This document shows, piece by piece, positions 736-57,857 of a stretch of 64,000 nt of DNA. Under the pieces are notes generated by a model that ran no database searches, had not been told where the DNA came from, and saw nothing but the letters and a program-made list of their open reading frames with translations. The DNA is from Oceanobacillus zhaokaii (lineage in GTDB: Bacteria > Bacillota > Bacilli > Bacillales > Amphibacillaceae). Every line of letters begins with the position of its first letter. Position 1 is the first letter of the stretch. The translations under genes and the position numbers were made by a program. The DNA lies in NCBI RefSeq assembly GCF_003352005.1, contig NZ_CP024848.1, positions 3,667,001-3,731,000 on the forward strand. The letters are read 5' to 3'.

Positions 736-832
736 AACATTTCTCCTCAATTATAATTTCTTTTTAAATATTAAATATTTAGATAAACTAAGACGTAACT
801 TGAGTGAAGATTGCTCACGGGCTTATCGCTCC

Positions 833-940
833 GGAAATACACTCCGCGCACCTTAGGGCGGCTGGTGAGCCCCTTGTGCTACCGCACTTCGGTGTCTCGT
901 CCTGAGGCCTTTCCTCCCGCAGGAGTCTCCGTGTATTTCC
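833..940 (-). repeat. R1 repeat, copy A (short form, minus orientation)
   Basis: Member of the dispersed R1 family, best seen at 21083-21188. Outer arms GGAAATACAC (833-842) and GTGTATTTCC (931-940) are perfect inverted repeats. The apical GTGC/GCAC hairpin is intact, but the GGTGAG/CTCACC stem is partly broken in this copy. It lies between the thioesterase gene and copy F, which points the opposite way. Confidence 0.85.
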
Positions 941-1025
941 TAGGCTGGGTTTGTGCGAGTATATAATATTCTATCCCTCTATTATAAATAATCGCATTTG
1001 GCCACCCTTATCTCCCTGGATTTTA

Positions 1026-1190
1026 GCGGAGGATAGGAGACTACTCGAAATTAAAGATCAATTTTCTAACGGAGATGTAACGCTGTCGGAGCCTTCCTTG
1101 TCCTGTGGGAATAGTCACGGCCGAGGATTCATTGGAATGACTTTTCCCACAGGAAGAAGACTGCGTTGCTCACGGAAAGCGACTGTACGC
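1026..1190 (+). repeat. R1 repeat, copy F (long form, degenerate)
   Basis: A worn copy of R1 with the GCGGA entry, GAGACTACT, then a 59 bp extra segment (1046-1104) ending in TTGTCCT, and a recognisable CACGGAAAGCG end. Both terminal arms have decayed. The extra segment has the same length and place as in copies E and H. Confidence 0.65.
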
Positions 1191-3906: not shown

Positions 3907-4025
3907 CTCTTATCAAGAGTGGTGGAGGGAATAGGCCCTTTGAAGCCCGGCAACCTTTAAGTTAGATTTTCTAATTTATTACGGTGCCAAATCCTACAGA
4001 TCTCACGTGATCTGGTAGATAAGAG
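3907..4025 (+). ncRNA. SAM-I (S-box) riboswitch
   Basis: Binds S-adenosylmethionine and stops transcription when SAM is plentiful. The outer P1 helix pairs CTCTTATC (3907-3914) with GATAAGAG (4018-4025). The core shows GGTGGAGGGA, AGGCCCTTTGAAGCCCGGCAACC and GGTGCCAAATCC, the known S-box consensus blocks. It is followed at once by a G+C-rich hairpin and T run, and then by a sulfhydrylase gene, which is the expected target. Confidence 0.97.
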
Positions 4026-4127: not shown

Positions 4128-5843
4128 ATGTCTCAATTTCATTTGCAAAACCCAGAAACAATTTTACTTCATGGTGGTCAGTCTCCCGATTCCGCTACAG
4201 GAGCACGTGCAGTACCAATCTATCAAACTACTTCCTATGTATTCCGTGACACTGAACACGCACAAAATCTCTTTGGTTTGGCGGAAAGTGGAAATATTTA
4301 TTCGCGAATTATGAATCCGACAGTTGACGCCTTCGAACAACGTGTTGCTTTGCTTGAAGATGGTGTTGGTGCTGTAGCGACTTCATCCGGAATGGCAGCT
4401 ATTACTCTAGCAATTTTAAATATAGCTGGAACAGGCGACGAAATAATTGCAGATAGCAATTTATATGGTGGAACGTATAATCTTTTCGCTACCACGCTGC
4501 CCCGTTATGGTATTACAGTAAAATTCGTTGATGGAACAGATCCAGAAGCTTTTCGATCAGCAATAACTGATAAGACGAAAGCATTTTTTGGTGAGATAAT
4601 TACAAATCCTAGTCTTTACGTATTTGATGTTGAAGCAGTAGCAGAAATTGCACATGAAAATGGGATTCCGTTAATTATCGATAATACATTTGCACCTTAT
4701 ATTGCAAAGCCAATCGCTTGGGGAGCTGATATTGTTGTTCATTCCGCTACGAAATGGATTGGTGGACATGGGACAACGATTGGTGGAGTAGTAGTTGATG
4801 GGGGACGCTTTAATTGGGATAGCGGACGTTTCCCTGATTTCACCGAGCCTGATCCAAGCTATAATGGGCTTCGTTATGTTGATGTCGGCGCAGCTGCTTT
4901 TGCAACAAAATTACGTGTACAGCTTCTTCGCGATATTGGTGCGTCCTTGAGTCCACAAAACGCATTCTTATTACTTCAAGGCTTGGAGACATTGCATTTA
5001 CGAATTGAAAGACATAGTGAAAATGCAATAGAGGTTGCAAATTACTTGAAAAATCACCCAGCGGTTGAATGGGTTAATTTCCCTGGCTTAGAAAATCACC
5101 CATCACATGGACTTGCCAAGAAATACTTTACAAGTGGTTTTGGATCAATCATTACATTCGGTATTAAGGGCGGCCGAGACGCCGGCAGAAAATTAATCGA
5201 CAATGTAAAACTATGGTCCCATGTAGCCAATGTTGGCGATGCAAAATCCTTAATTATTCACCCTGCATCTACTACTCATCAGCAATTGAGTGGAGAGGAC
5301 TTGAAGAAAAGTGGTGTAACCGAAGAATTAGTTCGATTATCAATCGGACTCGAGTCAACGAAAGACACGCTAGCTGATTTGGATCAGGCAATTGCTATTG
5401 CTGTTGGAGAAGCTCCATCCTTAAAAGCAACAGAAGAAGACGCAATTAAATGGTTGCTTTCCTCTCCTTTTAATAGAGATGAGACAGGCATTCGCAAGAA
5501 AGCAATTGCAATTTCAGGGCAAACAAATCATGCGATCCGAAAATTAGCAACATCAGGATACCAGATTATTCCTTTTGGGGAAAACACGAGTAATCAAACA
5601 TTAGAGGACATCCCGCTCGAAGTTGATGCAGTATGGACTGCTGATGGTAACTTACCAAATTCAACTATCGAACAAATCATAAACAAACAGGGTAAAATCC
5701 TTTGGGTGGAACATTTTACGAATGCAGACAACACTATTGAGCACGCCAAAGCGGCCGGGATTACCGTGATTAGTAACAAAGATATTTACGAGGAATCTGT
5801 AAAAGCGAGAGGACAATTCACGAATGCAGTGATTGGAGTATAA
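4128..5843 (+). CDS. O-acetylhomoserine sulfhydrylase with C-terminal CoA-binding-like domain
   Basis: The first roughly 425 of 571 residues are a Cys/Met-metabolism PLP enzyme that makes homocysteine (or methionine from methanethiol) from O-acetylhomoserine. The PLP lysine is K209 in [11 protein letters not shown], and the NPT and SSGMAA motifs near residues 63 and 86-90 are typical. The usual length is about 430. The extra 140 residues (about 435-571) have a Rossmann pattern with [37 protein letters not shown] and AAGITVISN, which resembles the small CoA_binding_2 domain proteins. The reading frame is continuous, so this is a fusion and not a frameshift. AGGAGG lies before ATG 4128. It is controlled by the S-box leader. 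It could be called metY or metZ. Confidence 0.88.
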
Positions 5844-6023: not shown

Positions 6024-6201
6024 GATATTTTCTATAATCATCATTTTTTTGATTTAAACTCAATTCGCTATTTATATGAACTGTAGCATATACGTGATGT
6101 TAAATCTCGGTCTGAGTCTTCACTTTCCATAGTGAAGACTTATGTAGTTTGATGTCACATCAAGATAGACAACTAATTTCCACTTGCAAAACCCCAACAG
6201 A

Positions 6202-6370
6202 GAAAATACACGGAGACTCCTCGAAAATAAAGAGCAATTTTCTTCGTGCGATGTAATGCTGACGTAGCTTTCCTTGTCCTGTGGGAAGAAGAGCCTAGGT
6301 AAGGCTTCGAAGTGCGAAAGCCCAAGAAGGCTCACCAGCTCCCCTAACTGCGCTCCAGCTACTGGTCTGT
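6202..6370 (+). repeat. R1 repeat, copy E (long form, 3' end decayed)
   Basis: It has the 5' arm GAAAATACAC (6202-6211), the 59 bp extra segment (6222-6280) and the apical GTGC-GAAA-GCCC hairpin, but the 3' arm and CCCGCGGAAAG part are replaced by unrelated sequence. It lies in the 900-base gap before ypmR. The rest of that gap (6400-6749) is A+T-rich, with no clear gene or strong promoter that I can place. Confidence 0.8.
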
Positions 6371-6749
6371 GAGCAGTCATCAATCTAAGTTAAGTCGCAA
6401 TTTATATCGATAACGAAATACCATTAATCACTTGTATAACCATCAATCTTTTATTAAATCTTCAAATGTGAAAGATACTAATTAGTCGGAGATAATACAA
6501 AGCTTAATTTAGTATTCTGCTCATCGTTTGAGAAATCACTAGAGAAGTGAATAGCAACATCATTGTTAGTCTCAATATATATCATTAAGCAATAATCAAG
6601 ATAAAATTACCTATTTTTTATTGACTGTGTTTAACTTCCTTTAATATTGCTTACAATATTAAGGTATACATTATGGAAATCTACTTTATAATGAAGTCAT
6701 CTAGTGATTTTTTTCATAATATATACTAGTTATGTATAGGTGTGATTAG

Positions 6750-20694: not shown

Positions 20695-20929
20695 CAGAAT
20701 TTTATAAAAGTTCATAAAATAAAGTTTTGTCGTTATTAATCGCATATTGTTAATATTGTATAAACATCCGTTTAGTTGAATAATAGATTGAAGATGTTTT
20801 CTATAGATTGTTGCTTTGCAAGAGTATCACCATGTTTCAAGGTGACATTATTCGTTGTATTTTAGGGGGGGAAGTTATTTAATACTATCTGCCAGGTGAT
20901 GAATGGTAATTCGAAGTTAATATAAACTG

Positions 20930-21050
20930 CGAACTATCGCAATGTCGATTTCCACAGGCAAAGCGGTCTGATACCGCAAGAGCCTCTTGTCCTCCGCTAA
21001 AATCAACCCCATGATAGAGGTGATGCCATCATAACTTATAGCAAGAAAGA
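20930..21050. repeat. R2 block next to R1 copy B
   Basis: A second repeated block beginning AACTGCGAACTA, with CGATTTCC, GCGGTCTGA and TCCTCCGCT. A related block at 57336-57500 also sits just before an R1 copy in the same order, so R2 and R1 may move or decay as one compound element. The remainder of the gap 20700-20930 is A+T-rich with no gene seen. Confidence 0.55.
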
Positions 21051-21082
21051 TAAAACACATAACAGTCGCACAACCCAGCGGA

Positions 21083-21188
21083 GGAAATACACGGAGACTC
21101 CTGCGGGAGGAAAGGCCTCGGTGAGACTACGAAGTGCGTTAGCACAAGGAGGCTCACCTGCCGCCCGCGGAAAGCGTAGTGTATTTCC
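21083..21188 (+). repeat. R1 repeat, copy B (reference short copy)
   Basis: 106 bp with nested pairing: outer arms GGAAATACAC/GTGTATTTCC (21083-21092, 21179-21188), GCGGG/CCCGC (21103-21107, 21164-21168), GGTGAG/CTCACC (21120-21125, 21153-21158) and an apical GTGC-GTTA-GCAC hairpin (21134-21145). Flanks are GCGGA and GGAGCG. It lies in the gap between opp operon 1 and the DUF1002 gene. Confidence 0.9.
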
Positions 21189-21317
21189 GGAGCGAATGGT
21201 CCGAGTGCATTTGATATCCTAGGCTATTGCATCCTATATTAATAGCAACAAGCAATGATTTAAGTGGTGCATTTGAAAGTAAGTTAGAATTGGTTATTGC
21301 CATAATCTTATCCATAA

Positions 21318-25474: not shown

Positions 25475-25777
25475 CTTGTTCAAAAGGGAGGATAAAAAGG
25501 ACCGCGTCGGCTAAGTTCGCAACGTCCTGGGACTGCGATTAATCGCCCCATCAAAAACATTTGTTGCGACGCCGACACTAGCCCGTCCTGGGCGTCGAAA
25601 GTTCGAGGCGGCGTAGCTCCCCGCAACGGGCTTCCACAGGATGTGGTGACTTCTACGTTTGTCCACAGGACGTGGACGGTTTTAGTAGAAGTTCCTTGAC
25701 TGTTTTAGCGTGAGTAGCGGAAAAGCAAGCCAACTAGAAACATCGATGTGTCATTTTTACCGGACTTTTTGAACTTT
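25475..25777 (+). repeat. R3 repeat, copy 1
   Basis: About 300 bp, clearly richer in G+C than its surroundings, with inverted ends TTCAAAAG and CTTTTTGAA. Shared blocks with the copy at 58400-58624 (opposite strand) are AGGATAAAAAGG, GGCGGCGTAGCT, ACGGGCTT, ACTTCTA, GTCCACAGGA and ACATCGATGTTTC (read in one direction). No open reading frame of note. The inverted ends and dispersed copies fit a non-coding mobile element of MITE kind. Confidence 0.7.
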
Positions 25778-37012: not shown

Positions 37013-37053
37013 GAAAACAAAATAGTGAGGAGGGCTCACAGGCCTACCGCTCC

Positions 37054-37159
37054 GGAAATACACTACGCTTTCCGCGGGTGGCTGGTGAGCCTCCTCGCAC
37101 TAACGCACTTCGCAGTCTCACCTAGGCCATTCCTCCCGCAGGAGTCTCCGTGTATTTCC
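37054..37159 (-). repeat. R1 repeat, copy C (short form, minus orientation)
   Basis: 106 bp with arms GGAAATACAC (37054-37063) and GTGTATTTCC (37150-37159) and all inner stems. In the apical hairpin GCAC is changed to GTGC, which still pairs through two G-U pairs. It lies downstream of the DUF3899 gene. The remainder of the gap to 37314 has no gene that I can see. Confidence 0.88.
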
Positions 37160-37314
37160 TCCGCCAGGATTGTAGTATTACAATCAATTAACTAAGTCTT
37201 TAAAAAATGAGATGGCAACACCTCCTTTTAACCGATGACCAGAGCGTAAATCAACATTACATATACAACGCAATTTATTTAAAAACCAAACGATAATAAT
37301 GAGCAGAGCTATTA

Positions 37315-37360: not shown

Positions 37361-38395
37361 TTAAGTTAATTTAGCGATAATTTCTTCGACTGTCTCTTCT
37401 TTTTTGAGTGCCCCTACGCCTTGGCCAGCAAATAGTGCCTGCACGTTGGCAATTGCAAACTCACTACCCGCTGCCCGAATATCCTTTGTTAATTCATTTT
37501 GAATTGGAAATGGTAAAACTTCAATTTTGCTTTCTTCTACTTTTTGTACGAAAGAATTATGTATCAATCTAGCCGGCCTTCCAGTGAACGATCTTGTGAT
37601 AACCGTGTCGTCCATTTCTGCTTTTATTATTGCTCTTCGATAAGAAGGATTCGTACCCGCTTCCTTCGCCATAAGAAATACAGTTCCTAATTGCACTCCA
37701 GCTGCACCCATTTGGATTAGTGCATCAATCTGCTCTTTCCTATATATTCCCCCTGCAGCAACTATGGGAATATTTATTTGATCGATAAACGACTGCACTA
37801 GCGTTATCAAACCTATATCACTGCCGTTGGGATTGTTAACGGTATCAAAGGTACCTCGATGTCCTCCTGCTTCATATCCTTGTGCAACAACAAGGTCATA
37901 CCCTGCATCTTCCAGTTGCTTTGCTTCATTTAAATTCGTTGCCATACCAATCAGTTTTACATTATTATCTTTAAGCCGCTCAATTAATACCGAAGACAAA
38001 CTGCCAAATGCCGTGCTGACTACTGGAACATTCTCTTGAATAATGATATATATTTTTTCTTGTAAGTAATCATTCACTTTTACTAGGTCATTGCCAGAAT
38101 CTATTTCAAGGGTGGTCCTAATGGTATTCAAAAACGCTTGCATTTCCTGAATGTCTTCTGTGAATACCTCTAAGTTTGCAGCAAATAAGTTTACTGCAAA
38201 GGGTTTGTTAGTCAAGCTTTTTACTCCTCGAATCGCTTCTTTTAACGAAGAAGCGCTTAGATAACCAGCACCAATTGTTCCTAAAGCCCCTTCGTTCGAA
38301 ACTGCTGCGACCAATTCAGGAGTTGTAATGCCTCCAGCCATCCCTGCCTGAATAATTGGTATTTCAACATTCATAATCTCCGATAACTTGTTCAC
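37361..38395 (-). CDS. Nitronate monooxygenase (FMN), GTG start
   Basis: Oxidises alkyl nitronates such as propionate 3-nitronate using FMN and O2. A TIM barrel of 344 residues: IPIIQAGMAGG at the N-terminus, AVNLFA, GYEAGGHRGTF with the active-site His, and AAGGIYRKEQIDALIQMGAAGVQLGT with the FMN phosphate loop. Start GTG 38395 has GGGGAGGTAG just before it; a longer frame (to 38497) has no ribosome site and overlaps a likely promoter. Some family members are enoyl-ACP reductases of FabK type, so the assignment is family level. Confidence 0.85.
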   Translation of the reverse strand: MNKLSEIMNVEIPIIQAGMAGGITTPELVAAVSNEGALGTIGAGYLSASSLKEAIRGVKSLTNKPFAVNLFAANLEVFTEDIQEMQAFLNTIRTTLEIDSGNDLVKVNDYLQEKIYIIIQENVPVVSTAFGSLSSVLIERLKDNNVKLIGMATNLNEAKQLEDAGYDLVVAQGYEAGGHRGTFDTVNNPNGSDIGLITLVQSFIDQINIPIVAAGGIYRKEQIDALIQMGAAGVQLGTVFLMAKEAGTNPSYRRAIIKAEMDDTVITRSFTGRPARLIHNSFVQKVEESKIEVLPFPIQNELTKDIRAAGSEFAIANVQALFAGQGVGALKKEETVEEIIAKLT

Positions 38396-38500
38396 GTTAC
38401 TACCTCCCCATAAAACGAATCTTTCCACTCCTTCAATCATATCATAACGTCTGCGAACTGTAGGAATTGAGCTTATTTTCCTATAATTCAAATTCATTTC

Positions 38501-43172: not shown

Positions 43173-43409
43173 AATACTAGTAACCTACCTTCTATTACTT
43201 CTTATCTCTATTGTAAATGACATACTTTTGTTTTTGAAACGATTTACCTTATCCATAACTACAAGGATAGGTTTTCTAATACTATATTATACATCATTTT
43301 GGAGAATGATTCTTGGGGATTGTAGTTCATTAAGGAAAACAAGTTTGTCACTATTTATATAAACTGCAAACTACTCTAGGGCAAAGGTTACTCACAGGCC
43401 ACTCGCTTC

Positions 43410-43477
43410 GAAAATACACTTCGCTTTCCGCGGGGGGCTGGTGAGCCTTCCTCCCGCAGGAGTCTTCGTGTATTTTC
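43410..43477 (-). repeat. R1 repeat, copy D (internally deleted)
   Basis: 68 bp. The outer arms are GAAAATACAC (43410-43419) and GTGTATTTTC (43468-43477), changed together from the GG/CC form. The whole apical part from GGCCTCGGTGAG through the GTGC hairpin is absent, leaving the outer arms, GCGGG/CCCGC and one side of the CTCACC stem. It lies upstream of the SNF2 gene. The rest of the gap 43173-43655 contains worn repeat-like sequence and no gene. Confidence 0.8.
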
Positions 43478-43655
43478 TCCGCTGAATTTGTGCAATCTTA
43501 CAATTTCAGAGCGATAAACACACTAATATCACCATTGCACTACGGTGTGAAACTATCCTCGTGCCGCAATCAACATTGCCTAATTCGCAATCTAAATCAA
43601 CTGCCAATAATCAAAAGTAACAAACCTTTAGAAGGCGAAACCGCGCCGTGAAAGG

Positions 43656-43689: not shown

Positions 43690-43690
43690 A

Positions 43691-44914
43691 TCAATCATGT
43701 CGTAATGCTTCGACTGGTTGTAGTTTTGATGCTCTAATTGATGGAAGTAGTCCAAAGATTATTCCAATCAACATTGAGAAAACAAACGAACCAACGACGG
43801 CTGGTATCGATACGAAAAATGGCATGTTGGCAAACTCAGATACAATTTTGGCAATACCGATACCTAAGAGGATCCCAACAATTCCACCTAAACTTGTCAG
43901 CACAATCGATTCTGTCAAAAACTGTGCTAAAATGACATGCCGCTTAGCACCGAGCGCTTTCTTTATACCGATTTCCTGTGTACGTTCTGTTACGGAAACG
44001 AGCATAATATTCATTACGCCGATTCCACCAACGAGCAAGGAAATACTTGCAATTCCACCGAGGATGAAGGCAAAGATACGATTGTACTCTCCCATTTCTT
44101 CCATCATTCGTTCAAAATCAGCTACCTGATAGATTGCTGTATCAAATGGTGGCAAGTCTTCATTTAGCCGACCCGCTATAGATGTCCCAACCTCTTGTAT
44201 TGCATCTGAGGAATCTGCTTGAACCGCAACCTGCATTGGCGCATCAAAGCCATTAATGATTGGCCAGATTGTCTTCGGCAAATAGATTATCGGTTCCTCA
44301 TAGTACCATTCATTATCCTTTTCCCCATTATTATTCGTAAACACACCAACTACCCGAAATGGTGTGCCAGATATATCGAGGCTTTGATTTAGTGCGTCTC
44401 CTTCTGGAAACAGCTCAGTAAGTACCATTTCGTTAATTAATGCCACTTGGCTGTATGACTCATAATCCTCTTCCGAGAAAGTTCTCCCTTCCACTATGGA
44501 AGCTTCAAACATGTCAAAATAACGCTCATCCACTCCATATATTCGTGGATGACTAATATTCATTAAATGATAGACTTCATTCCAGCCTTCATGATAAACA
44601 GACATGCCAGAAACATTAGGATACGTTAATATTTCTTCAATAGCCTCTTCTTTAATCGGTGGCGCAGCTTTATTGGAAACCTCACCACCATACATTCCTT
44701 CTTCACCATACATATCTGCTTCTTCATAAACGACATTAATTGTATTTTTACCCATACCAATTAAATTGCTTTTTAATTCTTCACTACCACCTTCAATAAT
44801 CGCGAAGATGGCAATAACTGCCGCAATCCCAATAATAACACCAAGCATTGTAAGCACAGAACGGAGCTTATGATTCCAAATGGATTGAAATGATGCGCGA
44901 ATGTTCTCAAGCAC
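43691..44914 (-). CDS. yknZ: MacB/FtsX-type ABC efflux permease (YknZ-like)
   Basis: 407 residues: helix 1 (about 18-40), a large extracellular MacB_PCD domain (about 45-270), then three helices with GVMNIMLVSVTERTQEIGIKKALGA, the FtsX signature. It works with the ATPase and adaptor encoded just upstream to export substrates from the membrane. It overlaps the ATPase gene by 8 bases. In B. subtilis YknWXYZ protects against the SdpC toxin; the function here is by analogy. Confidence 0.85.
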   Translation of the reverse strand: MLENIRASFQSIWNHKLRSVLTMLGVIIGIAAVIAIFAIIEGGSEELKSNLIGMGKNTINVVYEEADMYGEEGMYGGEVSNKAAPPIKEEAIEEILTYPNVSGMSVYHEGWNEVYHLMNISHPRIYGVDERYFDMFEASIVEGRTFSEEDYESYSQVALINEMVLTELFPEGDALNQSLDISGTPFRVVGVFTNNNGEKDNEWYYEEPIIYLPKTIWPIINGFDAPMQVAVQADSSDAIQEVGTSIAGRLNEDLPPFDTAIYQVADFERMMEEMGEYNRIFAFILGGIASISLLVGGIGVMNIMLVSVTERTQEIGIKKALGAKRHVILAQFLTESIVLTSLGGIVGILLGIGIAKIVSEFANMPFFVSIPAVVGSFVFSMLIGIIFGLLPSIRASKLQPVEALRHD

Positions 44915-45593
44915 GAATCACGTCACTCCCTTCATCAATCAGCTCACCATCACGGATTAAAACAACTCGATCCGCTTTCCGAGCAACTTCCTTATCATGA
45001 GTAATTAGGATAATCGTTACCCCACTTGCATTAAGTTCTTGAAAAAGGGACAAAATTTGTTCTCCTGTTTTAGAATCGAGCGCTCCAGTAGGTTCATCGG
45101 CTAAAATAAATTTCGGTTCATTAATAAGCGCACGAGCAATTGCCACTCGCTGTCTTTGTCCACCTGACATCTTGGATGGACGGAAGTTTGCACGCTCCGC
45201 AAGTCCTACTCTTTCAAGCGCAGCTGCTGCTCTTTCTTTTCTCTCCCTTTTCTTCACCCCACTATAAATCAGTGGTAATTCAACATTTTGCTGAGCCGTT
45301 AACCTTGGTAATAGATGGAAGGTTTGAAAGACAAAGCCAATTGACCGATTGCGGATTTCCGCTAATTTGCCTTCTTTAAGCTTTAATATATCCATAGAAT
45401 CAAGCACATAATCTCCTGTATTCGGACGATCAAGACAACCGATAATATTCATCAAGGATGTTTTCCCAGATCCAGACGGTCCCATAATCGCTAGGATTTC
45501 TCCTTCTTCAACATTTAGATTTATTTCACGAAGAATCGGGATTTCCTCTTTCCCTAACCGGTAAGACTTATTAATATTCTTCAGTTGTATCAT
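44907..45593 (-). CDS. yknY: MacB-type ABC efflux ATPase (YknY-like)
   Basis: 228 residues. Walker [10 protein letters not shown]-loop [18 protein letters not shown], Walker [12 protein letters not shown] and the switch His in LITHDKEVA. This is the LolD/MacB/YknY group. ATG 45593 gives the standard start [11 protein letters not shown]; the longer frame to 45662 lies within the adaptor gene. It overlaps the adaptor gene by 23 bases, so all three genes are tightly coupled. Confidence 0.88.
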
Positions 45594-46866
45594 AGTCAAG
45601 GACCTCAACCTTCTTTCCTTCCTCAATTGAAGTTGAAGGATCGGGGAACACAATCGAATCATCCATTGTTAAACCAGTAAGAATTTCCACCATATATCCG
45701 TCATCAGTTTCAGCAAATTCCACTTCCTGCTTGTACGTTTCATTTGTTTCTAAATTTACAGCCCATACAAAGGGCACTTCTTCATCTTGAACAATATAAT
45801 CGATTGGGATCATAACTGCTCCTGTTGATGGTTCGGACTCAGAATTCCCTGTGATTGGTGCAAGGTTCACATGAAAGCCGATTTCAAGACCTTCATGTTC
45901 ATTCAGCAAAACAGTAAATGGATACTTGGATGTTTGTGGATTGCCTTCTTCATAGTAATACATTTCCTGATTCATATCGCCTTCACCTTCACCTACCGGA
46001 AGTTTGCCAATCTCAGTAATTTCACCAATCCATTCCCCGTCTATTCCTTTTTTCGTCGATACTTGAACTTTGTCACCGACAGCAATCGTATCTAGTAATA
46101 ATTCATTTACTTCACTTTTAATTAAATATGCACCTGTGGAAACGATTGTTAATAACGGACCGCTTGCACCTGACTCTTCTCCATATGGTGCACCAGCAAG
46201 TAAATCTTGATTAATCGTCTGAACAATACCTGGTCCTTTACTTACGACAACTGGAGATTTTTCTTCCTCTTTGAAAGCTTCAATTTCCTTCTGTACTTGG
46301 CCAGCTTGAAGGTTACTCATTCGTAAATCGAAAATAACCTGATCAAGTTCTTGCTGTAGTGTTTCTTTTTCATCTGCAAAGGAAATCTCTTCCCCTTCTT
46401 CTTCCGGTACTTCACTTGCAGTTGCTCCTGCATTTTTGATCTGCTTTTCCAATCGTTCCTTTTGCTTCTGCAAACGATTGATATCCATATAAGCCATTTC
46501 AAGTTCAATTTGTTTTTGATCTTTTTCGATTGAAAGGTCCTCTTCTGGCTCGTATTCAAATAATGTGGTCCCCTCTTCCACTGCATCACCTTCAGAGACA
46601 AACACCTCTTTAATAGTTCCTTCTGCAGGGTCGTAGTAGATTTTTTCCATTCTTTCCGCCTCGACTTTTCCAGAGAATGCTGCAAATGCACCCATATCCA
46701 TTTCCATCCCCATAAAATCAGACACATTCTCTGCATACAACGGAAATTCCTCACTGCCAAATACCGGATTTGCTGTATTCATATTGTAAAAAATGAATCC
46801 CCCACCAACAATTAGCAATACTGCTAAGCCAATACCTACCCCAAGCCAAACCTTTCTTTTTTTCAT
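45571..46866 (-). CDS. yknX: HlyD/MacA-type efflux adaptor (YknX-like)
   Basis: 431 residues: N-terminal membrane helix (about 7-27), a biotinyl-lipoyl-like hairpin domain split around a long coiled coil (about 105-215, rich in Glu, Lys and Gln), and beta-barrel domains to the end. It joins the ATPase-permease pair to the cell surface. ATG 46866 follows GGGGAGAAAGACG; a frame opening at 46881 crosses that site. First gene of the operon. An 11-bp-period triple direct repeat sits just upstream of its promoter. Confidence 0.85.
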   Translation of the reverse strand: MKKRKVWLGVGIGLAVLLIVGGGFIFYNMNTANPVFGSEEFPLYAENVSDFMGMEMDMGAFAAFSGKVEAERMEKIYYDPAEGTIKEVFVSEGDAVEEGTTLFEYEPEEDLSIEKDQKQIELEMAYMDINRLQKQKERLEKQIKNAGATASEVPEEEGEEISFADEKETLQQELDQVIFDLRMSNLQAGQVQKEIEAFKEEEKSPVVVSKGPGIVQTINQDLLAGAPYGEESGASGPLLTIVSTGAYLIKSEVNELLLDTIAVGDKVQVSTKKGIDGEWIGEITEIGKLPVGEGEGDMNQEMYYYEEGNPQTSKYPFTVLLNEHEGLEIGFHVNLAPITGNSESEPSTGAVMIPIDYIVQDEEVPFVWAVNLETNETYKQEVEFAETDDGYMVEILTGLTMDDSIVFPDPSTSIEEGKKVEVLDYDTTEEY

Positions 46867-46906
46867 CGTCTTTCTCCCCATTTATGTAATATTTTGTAAT
46901 ATCTCC

Positions 46907-46969
46907 ATTATTATTCAACTATGAGTGAATTGCAATCTATTTTTACAAAAATATTACATTTATATTACA
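46907..46969 (-). promoter_or_regulatory. Promoter with triple TGTAAT-type response-regulator site
   Basis: On the minus strand TGTAAT-N5-TGTAAT-N5-TGTAAA (46969-46942) ends 6 bases before a -35 TTGCAA (46935-46930), with a 17 bp spacer and -10 AATAAT (46912-46907). Direct hexamers at an 11 bp period next to a weak -35 are the layout of an OmpR-family activator site; the hexamer fits the WalR consensus TGTWAH. No two-component genes are in this window. Confidence 0.65.
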
Positions 46970-47060
46970 TGGAGGAATCTAGCATTTCTTTCTGGTTATG
47001 ATTGCTTTATGCTGGTGCTTTTATCCGATTATTTTTGCTAAATATTCTCCATTTGCTTAA

Positions 47061-54773: not shown

Positions 54774-54780
54774 ATATAGG

Positions 54781-54807
54781 AGGACCGGGCAAATCCAGCC
54801 CGGTCCT
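54781..54807 (+). terminator. Terminator of the yhcEFGHI operon
   Basis: AGGACCGGGC pairs perfectly with GCCCGGTCCT over a seven-base loop, with TATCAGTTTT after it. Confidence 0.88.
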
Positions 54808-54987
54808 TATCAGTTTTCCATACTACAAAACTTTATATTATCAAAAATGCGGTTTTTCATTCTAAATTTATTCCGAGCACCTTTGCAGTTTATTAGCTAC
54901 GATACCATCATCGACTATAATTGTGAAAAATTACTTTCTTTTTAAAATAGATGCGGATATTTATCAATGCATCACAACCCCAGCGGA

Positions 54988-55093
54988 AGAAATACACGGA
55001 GACTCCTGCGGGAAGAAGAGCCTAGGTGAGACTTCGAAGTGCGAAAGCACAAGAAGGCTCACCAGCTCCCCGCGGAAAGCGTAGTGTATTTCT
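54988..55093 (+). repeat. R1 repeat, copy G (short form)
   Basis: 106 bp. Outer arms AGAAATACAC (54988-54997) and GTGTATTTCT (55084-55093): the first and last bases have changed together compared with copy B. Inner stems GGTGAG/CTCACC and the apical GTGC-GAAA-GCAC are perfect. It lies between the yhc operon and the EamA gene. Confidence 0.9.
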
Positions 55094-55176
55094 GGAGCGA
55101 CAGCCAAGGAAGCAAATATCATCCTAAGTTCGTTGGTAGTTTATACATAACTAGCAACATCCAATAAAAAAACCAA

Positions 55177-55205
55177 TTGTTAAGTGACATTACATAAGCT
55201 ATAAT
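55177..55205 (+). promoter_or_regulatory. Promoter of the EamA transporter gene
   Basis: TTGTTA (55177-55182), 17 bp, TATAAT (55200-55205), 45 bases before the start codon. Confidence 0.75.
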
Positions 55206-57335: not shown

Positions 57336-57500
57336 CTGCGAACTACTTGCGATGTGGATTTCCGATGCGGATAGTCGCACACCATAGGGCAAGCGGTCTA
57401 CTTCATCCGTTGCTATTCCCGTAGGTGCTCCCTGTCCTCCGCTGTAATCCCATCAATGAGGGAGGAAAATGCGGCTCTATCGTGCTTGTTAATAACTTAG
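57336..57500. repeat. R2 block next to R1 copy H
   Basis: Starts AACTGCGAACTAC, with GATTTCCGATG, GCAAGCGGTCTAC and TCCTCCGCTG. It corresponds to the block at 20930-21050, with extra sequence in the middle. It directly precedes R1 copy H in the same order as at 21 kb. Confidence 0.5.
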
Positions 57501-57542
57501 ATGAGGATAGAAAGCCATTTTTACTCACACAATCCCAGCGGA

Positions 57543-57708
57543 GAAAATACACGAAGACTCCTCGAAAATAAAGTGCGATTTTCTTCGTGCGATGTAATGC
57601 TGCCGAAGCCTTCCTTGTCCTGCGGGAGGAAGGGCTTCGGTGAGACTTCGAAGTGCGACAGCACAAGAAGGCTCACCAGCCCCCCTAAGGTGCGCGTAGT
57701 GTATTTTC
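57543..57708 (+). repeat. R1 repeat, copy H (long form)
   Basis: 166 bp. Outer arms GAAAATACAC (57543-57552) and GTGTATTTTC (57699-57708) are perfectly inverted. A 59 bp segment (57563-57621) sits between GACTCCT and GCGGGAGG and ends in GTCCT, so TCCT flanks it on both sides. Inside it GAAAAT and ATTTTC form a small hairpin. The apical hairpin is GTGC-GACA-GCAC. It is the best long copy in the window. Confidence 0.88.
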
Positions 57709-57857
57709 GGTGCGATAGGCCCAAGAATATTTGATATCCTAAGTTAGTTCGAAGTTTATATTAACTTCTAATTATCATCCATCACTTGAAAAAGCAACAT
57801 TTATTAGAAATAAGTCTTACGATAAATAGGTTTGTAAATCACCAAGGAGGTCAAATA

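Follow-up and report, generated by a model that had tools for sequence, protein, structure and literature searches.

The R1 repeat of Oceanobacillus zhaokaii is one half of a gene-free composite element, in which it lies head to head with a sister module, R2 or R3. The composite is present in many copies and across genera, is present or absent at corresponding places in related genomes, and has inverted interiors at shared loci, and the folding of R1 is conserved with double-sided change in several helices. We favor the view, at a probability of roughly 0.6, that the R1 element is MITE-like, invertible, non-autonomous, and selected to fold. The first-pass annotation overlooked this larger unit, and its interpretation is partly supported. 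The window analyzed here is a stretch of 64,000 nucleotides (C1:3667001-3731000) from a one-contig genome of 4.10 Mb; for one flanking protein, the nearest named record is from Virgibacillus indicus (67% identity).

Eight copies of a dispersed structured repeat had been listed in the window. The repeat is real, and related sequence was present in all eight intervals. Seven are R1 or derived from R1 (Table 1), but the interval 1026-1190, with no AAATACAC arm and no match to the R1 covariance model, is the sister module R2. The interval 6202-6370 (copy C) also departs from the description, as it retains GAAAATACAC on the left and lacks GTGTATTT on the right. The three arm variants agreed with the description once its copy letters were assigned by sequence. 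A covariance model trained on 62 genomic copies, an approach the first-pass annotation had proposed, recovered the family in the window and in relatives. The seven window matches lay on the expected strands, and an extra match was a weak antisense echo at 54979-55101. The location between genes was also borne out: the neighbors of all eight intervals carry Pfam matches, and small open reading frames (ORFs) overlap some copies (951-1400, 6120-6383, and 57403-57666), the first of which gave no match in a Pfam scan. In the copies at 1026, 6202, and 57543, ~60 extra bases (CGAAAATAAAG...TTGTCCTGYGGGA) interrupt the GACTCCTGCGGGA motif, and the same insert was found again in copies from one relative (genome G022). 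Elsewhere in the window, a SAM riboswitch (3907-4025, + strand; 87.6 bits) lies directly upstream of a Cys/Met-metabolism PLP enzyme gene (4128-5843).

Table 1. R1, its sister module, and associated sites in the window (window positions; arm positions and model matches in separate columns)
Feature	Position	Strand	Arms (at)	Covariance-model match	Basis
R1 copy A; tail to left at 726-823	824..948	-	GG..CC (833)	824-948 (-)	covariance model, tail profile, sequence
R2-type sister module, long insert, head to head with copy A	1026..1190	+			sequence, flank alignment
R1-derived copy C, long insert, right arm lost	6202..6370	+		6280-6347 (+, fragment)	sequence, covariance model
Palindromic left end site of the composite holding copy D	20907..20936	.			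fetched loci, cross-genome match
R1 copy D; interior inverted in G007 here	21075..21197	+	GG..CC (21083)	21075-21197 (+)	covariance model, site comparison
R1 copy E, between convergent genes	37045..37167	-	GG..CC (37054)	37045-37167 (-)	covariance model
R1 copy F, inner hairpin deleted	43401..43485	-	GA..TC (43410)	43401-43485 (-)	sequence, covariance model
R1 module, focal copy	54980..55102	+	AG..CT (54988)	54980-55102 (+)	covariance model (152.2 bits), sequence
Right tail of focal copy, with degenerate end site	55103..55183	+			tail profile, 37.6 bits over 55100-55183
R1 copy H, long insert, between divergent genes	57543..57717	+	GA..TC (57543)	57596-57717 (+)	sequence, covariance model

Across the 4.1 Mb genome, GACTCCTGCGGGA with at most one mismatch occurs at 98 places, compared with 1 for the reversed pattern; several of the one-mismatch places read GACTCCTACGGGA, which we take to be the reading found in 16S rRNA genes. 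At least 80 distinct copies among the fetched sequences carry both arm-plus-hinge anchors (at most four substitutions each). Chance is excluded by these two counts together with paired change that exceeded 500 of 500 shuffles. The first-pass annotation placed similar repeats across Bacillaceae, and the covariance model identified family members in 52 of 58 relatives, representing 25 of 31 genera, with per-genome counts that are lower bounds (at most 61 candidates per genome were scored). The exact 13-mer was found in 46 of the 58, with counts of 0 to 172. Lower-scoring R2-type copies were also reached by the model in 30 relatives' loci. Another small hairpin-like module, similar in sequence to GTGGGACGAGTAATCGCAGTCCC, lies inside R1-type loops of relatives (loci L127 and L132) and also at the outer tails of some composites in the O. 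zhaokaii genome, just outside the unit.

A comparison with Rfam, and with Bacillaceae-1 in particular, gave a divided answer. R1 matched no family at the gathering score, nor at E-values up to 1 over the focal region, where the E ≤ 1 scan returned a single chance-level match outside R1. Bacillaceae-1 (RF01690) was nested in the elements of two relatives, scoring 58.3 and 49.1 bits against a gathering score of 35 (14 of 30 relatives' loci scanned). One host is an R2-type element with its left part masked (L115) and the other, L117, is of the R1 type; a further four weak matches in the 14 loci lie off the modeled parts of the elements. What links Bacillaceae-1 to R1 is its place within R1/R2-type elements of two relatives. 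R1 itself is unmatched, however, and in the window Bacillaceae-1 occupies a separate place, at 25633-25701 (- strand; 66.7 bits), where it stands by itself with a Ribonuc_L-PSP gene on one side and a lysozyme-like gene on the other.

The fold was assessed in an alignment of 62 copies with cores of 113-120 bp (18 of the 80, with cores of 75-107 or 176-177 bp, were omitted), using a 37-pair structure drawn by hand from folds. At the first position of the outer arm, 30 copies have G-C and 29 have A-T; at the second, the numbers are 38 and 21. Pairing over the 37 pairs reached 92.6% of cells compared with 89.6% in shuffles, and double-sided change was found in 15 of 37 pairs (7.9 in shuffles) and in 103 cells (36.2 in shuffles), values that none of 500 shuffles reached; further pair types were unexceptional (39 compared with 36.4, reached by 52 of 500 shuffles). 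Sliding the partners by 1-3 columns lowered pairing to 35-54%, a lenient control because the structure was derived from the same sequences. Part of the paired-change signal is inheritance within subfamilies. A 3′ module ~10 bases from the right arm exists in two versions (a CCGCGG/CCTAAGG swap), and the arm classes occur with both (AG/CT in 14 and 14 copies, GA/TC in 13 and 7, and GG/CC in 6 and 2, with six other rows). These combinations imply either several separate changes of the arms or recombination that preserved their pairing. Some pairs count against the fold: in the 25-26 copies that carry the CCTAAGG module, two pairs of helix 3 are broken, and a pair of helix 4 is broken in 22 copies. 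RNAalifold alone gave fewer pairs (21) and a covariation term of only -1. Three folded copies were far more stable than their shuffles, both as DNA (z -2.9 to -6.3) and as RNA (z -3.8 to -7.1), and the DNA folds are stable on both strands.

Arm sequences differ between genera yet still pair. Among 25 relatives' copies in which both hinges were located (hinge-less copies were dropped), at least 6 of the 7 arm positions pair in 24, compared with 33% of mismatched arm combinations, and none of 2000 permutations reached the observed total arm pairing. Paired change with free loops, as described in the first-pass annotation, holds for the outer arms and for inner helices and extends across genera. 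The hinge beside the arm is a symmetric internal loop, GNA/GNA, adjoining a GC/GC step; GNA/GNA loops are able to form sheared G.A pairs. Of the 62 copies, 59 have G.A at one closing opposition and 61 have A.G at the other, around a variable middle base, and the left hinge reads GNA in 25 of 25 relatives' copies, the right hinge being preset by the search pattern. In R2, two loops of the GNA/GNA type are seen by eye in tandem.

Gene context was examined in three segments, where a simple ORF caller placed 47 of 55 elements: 38 in co-directional, 7 in convergent, and 2 in divergent gaps. The background of gaps of at least 150 bases comprised 295, 58, and 87, respectively. Divergent gaps were avoided (2 of 47 compared with 87 of 440; p 0.005), convergent gaps were not enriched (7 of 47; p 0.67), and of the 38 copies in co-directional gaps, 26 had R1 on the same strand as the genes (p 0.03), all p-values being optimistic because the three genomes are related. 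The caller put the other eight elements inside ORFs of 92-124 aa, which overlap the repeat and probably do not represent genes. A phage or plasmid home was considered and rejected: there was no match to phages, and the plasmid matches were two partial ones, each to Priestia megaterium.

The preference for the gene strand, the very stable RNA folds, and the nesting of Bacillaceae-1 in two relatives could be explained by a structured RNA, either an sRNA or a UTR element, with one strand under selection and carried by the repeat incidentally. Excerpts of one report describe the reverse complement of Bacillaceae-1 as matching CsrA-binding motifs, with the strand uncertain (PMC4333381). The folded-RNA interpretation had been raised at the outset, and its conserved fold stands, but the test for a single strand gave no significant bias: in the four helices free of the 3′ module swap, 27 G-T cells were counted compared with 16 A-C cells (p 0.13). 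Helices 3 and 4 were left out of this strand test because the swap dominated the counts over all helices (63 G-T and 66 A-C). The stability of the DNA folds on both strands and the orientation flips at shared sites (below) also speak against a one-strand RNA, which we consider improbable as the general explanation; an RNA role for some copies is possible. An intrinsic terminator or stabilizer of mRNA 3′ ends would fit the scarcity of copies in divergent gaps, a scarcity that we also count in favor of the MITE-like reading, but it is not favored by the absence of convergent enrichment. A scan placed a terminator-like site elsewhere, at 54780-54808, and within R1 a single weak one on the minus strand. 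The large hairpin of the focal copy is followed by no T-run, which leaves the terminator reading unsupported there, and for the family as a whole we regard it as scarcely credible.

Alignment of copies with their flanks revealed the order of the composite: end site, reversed R2 or R3, spacer, R1, tail, and end site. The first-pass annotation had offered the arms as ends matched by a transposase, but they sit inside this larger unit, which has inverted end sites of its own, similar in sequence to TTAGTTCGCAGTT-TATAT-AAACTGCGAACTAA. With at most two mismatches, the end-site pattern TTAGTTCGCANTTTATATNAA occurs at 58 places and its reversed control at none. Looser matching in the fetched loci of the O. 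zhaokaii genome gave 122 places, 49 of them with an R1 arm just inside. As in a MITE, these ends form terminal inverted repeats, 35 of the 49 having an inverted mate within 450 bp, and they bound short, non-coding units: 33 of the 35 have a single mate, at a distance of 113-395 bp that for 29 of them lies in the range 241-395, and the copy number of R1 is high, as given above. The remaining end sites have no recognizable mate, so many ends have decayed. Some end sites are full 24-bp palindromes. The palindrome TTCGCANTTNATATNAANTGCGAA, at no more than two mismatches, was found in 13 of 58 genomes and 4 of 31 genera, with as many as 40 clean palindromes in a single genome, and the reversed control gave 0 in all 58. 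R1 or R2 motifs lie within 450 bp at 14 of 17 fetched palindrome loci; of the others, L288 has none and L281 and L292 lie at the locus end. The outer tails fade gradually, with no sharp border. No autonomous partner with the same ends was seen in the fetched loci, and no cognate enzyme for the composite was found. One candidate for an autonomous element, a gene between two R1 copies in three genomes, was set aside when it read by eye as an ABC-transporter ATPase.

Turnover and inversion were followed by comparing 430 kb of the genome with syntenic contigs of two relatives (G007 and G022), whose long matches mostly show 80-90% DNA identity. A profile search gave 22 elements longer than 80 bases in O. 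zhaokaii, 12 in G007, and 21 in G022, and many of the O. zhaokaii elements have no R1 at the anchored place in the relative or could not be anchored. At genome positions 3655690-3656121, a 431-bp stretch with an element corresponds to a closed gap (-6) in G022; CCTTTTT is a possible target-site duplication by eye, and ~70 bp past the end tail is also missing in G022. The element at site H of the window is absent from G007, with an imprecise gap. Two other parts of the window, a nitronate monooxygenase gene (37361-38497) and a block at ~43690-47000 that includes a MacB/FtsX permease gene, are unmatched at the syntenic place in both relatives.

Shared sites could be paired at 12 places with G022 and 7 with G007, and R1 was opposite in direction at 6 of the 12 and 2 of the 7. 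Local alignment was used to score the flanks, starting 15 bases beyond the end sites, in place of flank identity, which was inseparable from its control; 442 mismatched comparisons gave a mean of 15.6 and a maximum of 27. Both flanks exceeded this control in three opposite pairs: 3572939 with G022 (34, 105), 3564347 with G022 (127, 95), and 3564347 with G007 (63, 88). One flank did so at 3527625 (18, 104), 3553017 (14, 44), and 3614746 (16, 122) with G022 and at 3688071 (87, 18) with G007, and neither did at 3596226 with G022 (20, 14). A nearby insertion is a possible account of these five of the eight opposite pairs, because one or both flanks fall within the control. At 3572939, the flank matches forward over own positions 4-147 and 382-517, and the interior matches in reverse over 137-231, 237-265, and 361-400, with flank and interior matches overlapping at the end half-sites (137-153 and 384-400). 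This is the picture expected of an inversion between the end half-sites, and reversed re-insertion at the same site would look identical. At 3688071, which is copy D, the forward match of the left flank stops exactly where the half-site ends, and 235 bp of the interior match in reverse. As judged from these alignments, the composite lies in the same flanks with its interior often inverted in two related genomes, and at the clearest site the breakpoints fall at the end sites; inversion of the interior in place, as described for Correia elements, is seen between species.

The main rival to an enzyme-driven element is a passive history, in which the interiors of old MITE-like debris are flipped and exchanged by replication template switching or by infrequent homologous exchange across its short inverted ends, with gene conversion homogenizing copies within species. 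Short inverted ends around interiors of a few hundred bases would suit such events, the three genomes have different subfamilies at the sites they share, and no enzyme was found. Neutral debris would not easily keep clean 24-bp palindromes at so many places in a genome, or maintain pairing in several helices, and we judge this history to be unlikely, though it has a real chance of being right.

Mobilization of a REP/REPIN-like element by a RAYT (REP-associated tyrosine transposase) was suggested by a significant association across genomes. RAYT hits of at least 56 bits occur in 17 of 19 genomes that have at least 20 exact copies of the motif, compared with 11 of 39 others (p 1.3e-5), and in 16 of 21 genomes with covariance-model counts of at least 45 compared with 12 of 37 others (p 0.002), both p-values being optimistic because the genomes are related. 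The RAYT genes examined carry other repeats, however. The O. zhaokaii RAYT (a 267 aa frame) is flanked, by eye, by a different, GGGACAGG-type repeat, and among 20 relatives' regions around RAYT hits, R1/R2 motifs lie near the gene only at L257; the RAYT frame was unmarked in 8 of these 20 regions, and the motif scan covered all 20 whole. No RAYT hit was obtained in two genomes that are rich in copies, G004 and G022. RAYT is thus a weak rival as mobilizer, and we consider it very improbable. The one O. zhaokaii RAYT gene that GGGACAGG-type repeats flank belongs to L102 (genome positions 3258511-3258897), and elsewhere there are two stretches of degraded RAYT-like sequence.

For the invertible MITE-like element that we favor, a trans-acting enzyme would recognize the end sites, spread the element, and flip its interior; a dedicated enzyme is the weakest step of this proposal. 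The arms would stay foldable if the folded form, as a cruciform or single-stranded DNA and possibly also as a transcript, were what is bound or protected, whether in that reaction or as the DNA replicates. A bolder proposal is a new class of site-specific inversion or cassette system in the bacterial order studied here, with a trans-acting recombinase that flips or swaps cassettes at dozens of intergenic loci and reads the folded arms rather than their sequence. The palindromic core sites, ~13-bp half-sites around an AT spacer, would then bound exchangeable cassettes consisting of folded-DNA modules with GNA/GNA hinges. We offer this tentatively and think it unlikely.

In many of the relatives sampled, the structured family to which R1 belongs reaches tens of copies per genome, and it has no Rfam match. 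Its arms form a natural series of changing yet pairing sequences that can show whether folded DNA or RNA is selected. With interiors inverted at shared loci, a simple PCR assay for the flip and a search for the enzyme are directly feasible. We found no paper giving the sequence of the R1 family in the open-licence literature. As far as that literature was searched, the anatomy of folded modules, the palindromic ends, and the range of genera covered are new, and the behavior fits a known kind, the invertible MITE-like element. Like REP/REPIN sequences with their RAYT, R1 is high-copy intergenic palindromic DNA in head-to-head pairs, but it differs in its ~120 bp module, its inverted end sites, and the bordering of RAYT genes by other repeats. 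The bcr1 and Bhal-1/Bhal-2 families are dispersed intergenic stem-loops in Bacillus, according to excerpts of their description (PMC2267715), and R1 is likewise a dispersed intergenic stem-loop, a likeness by description alone. A precedent for the flip comes from the Correia repeat enclosed elements, MITEs of Neisseria that are reported in a review to undergo inversion (PMC10969869). Compared by description, these share with R1 a small, gene-free intergenic element with inverted ends, and R1 is set apart by its pair of structured modules placed head to head, by end sites that are palindromic, and by arms that covary.
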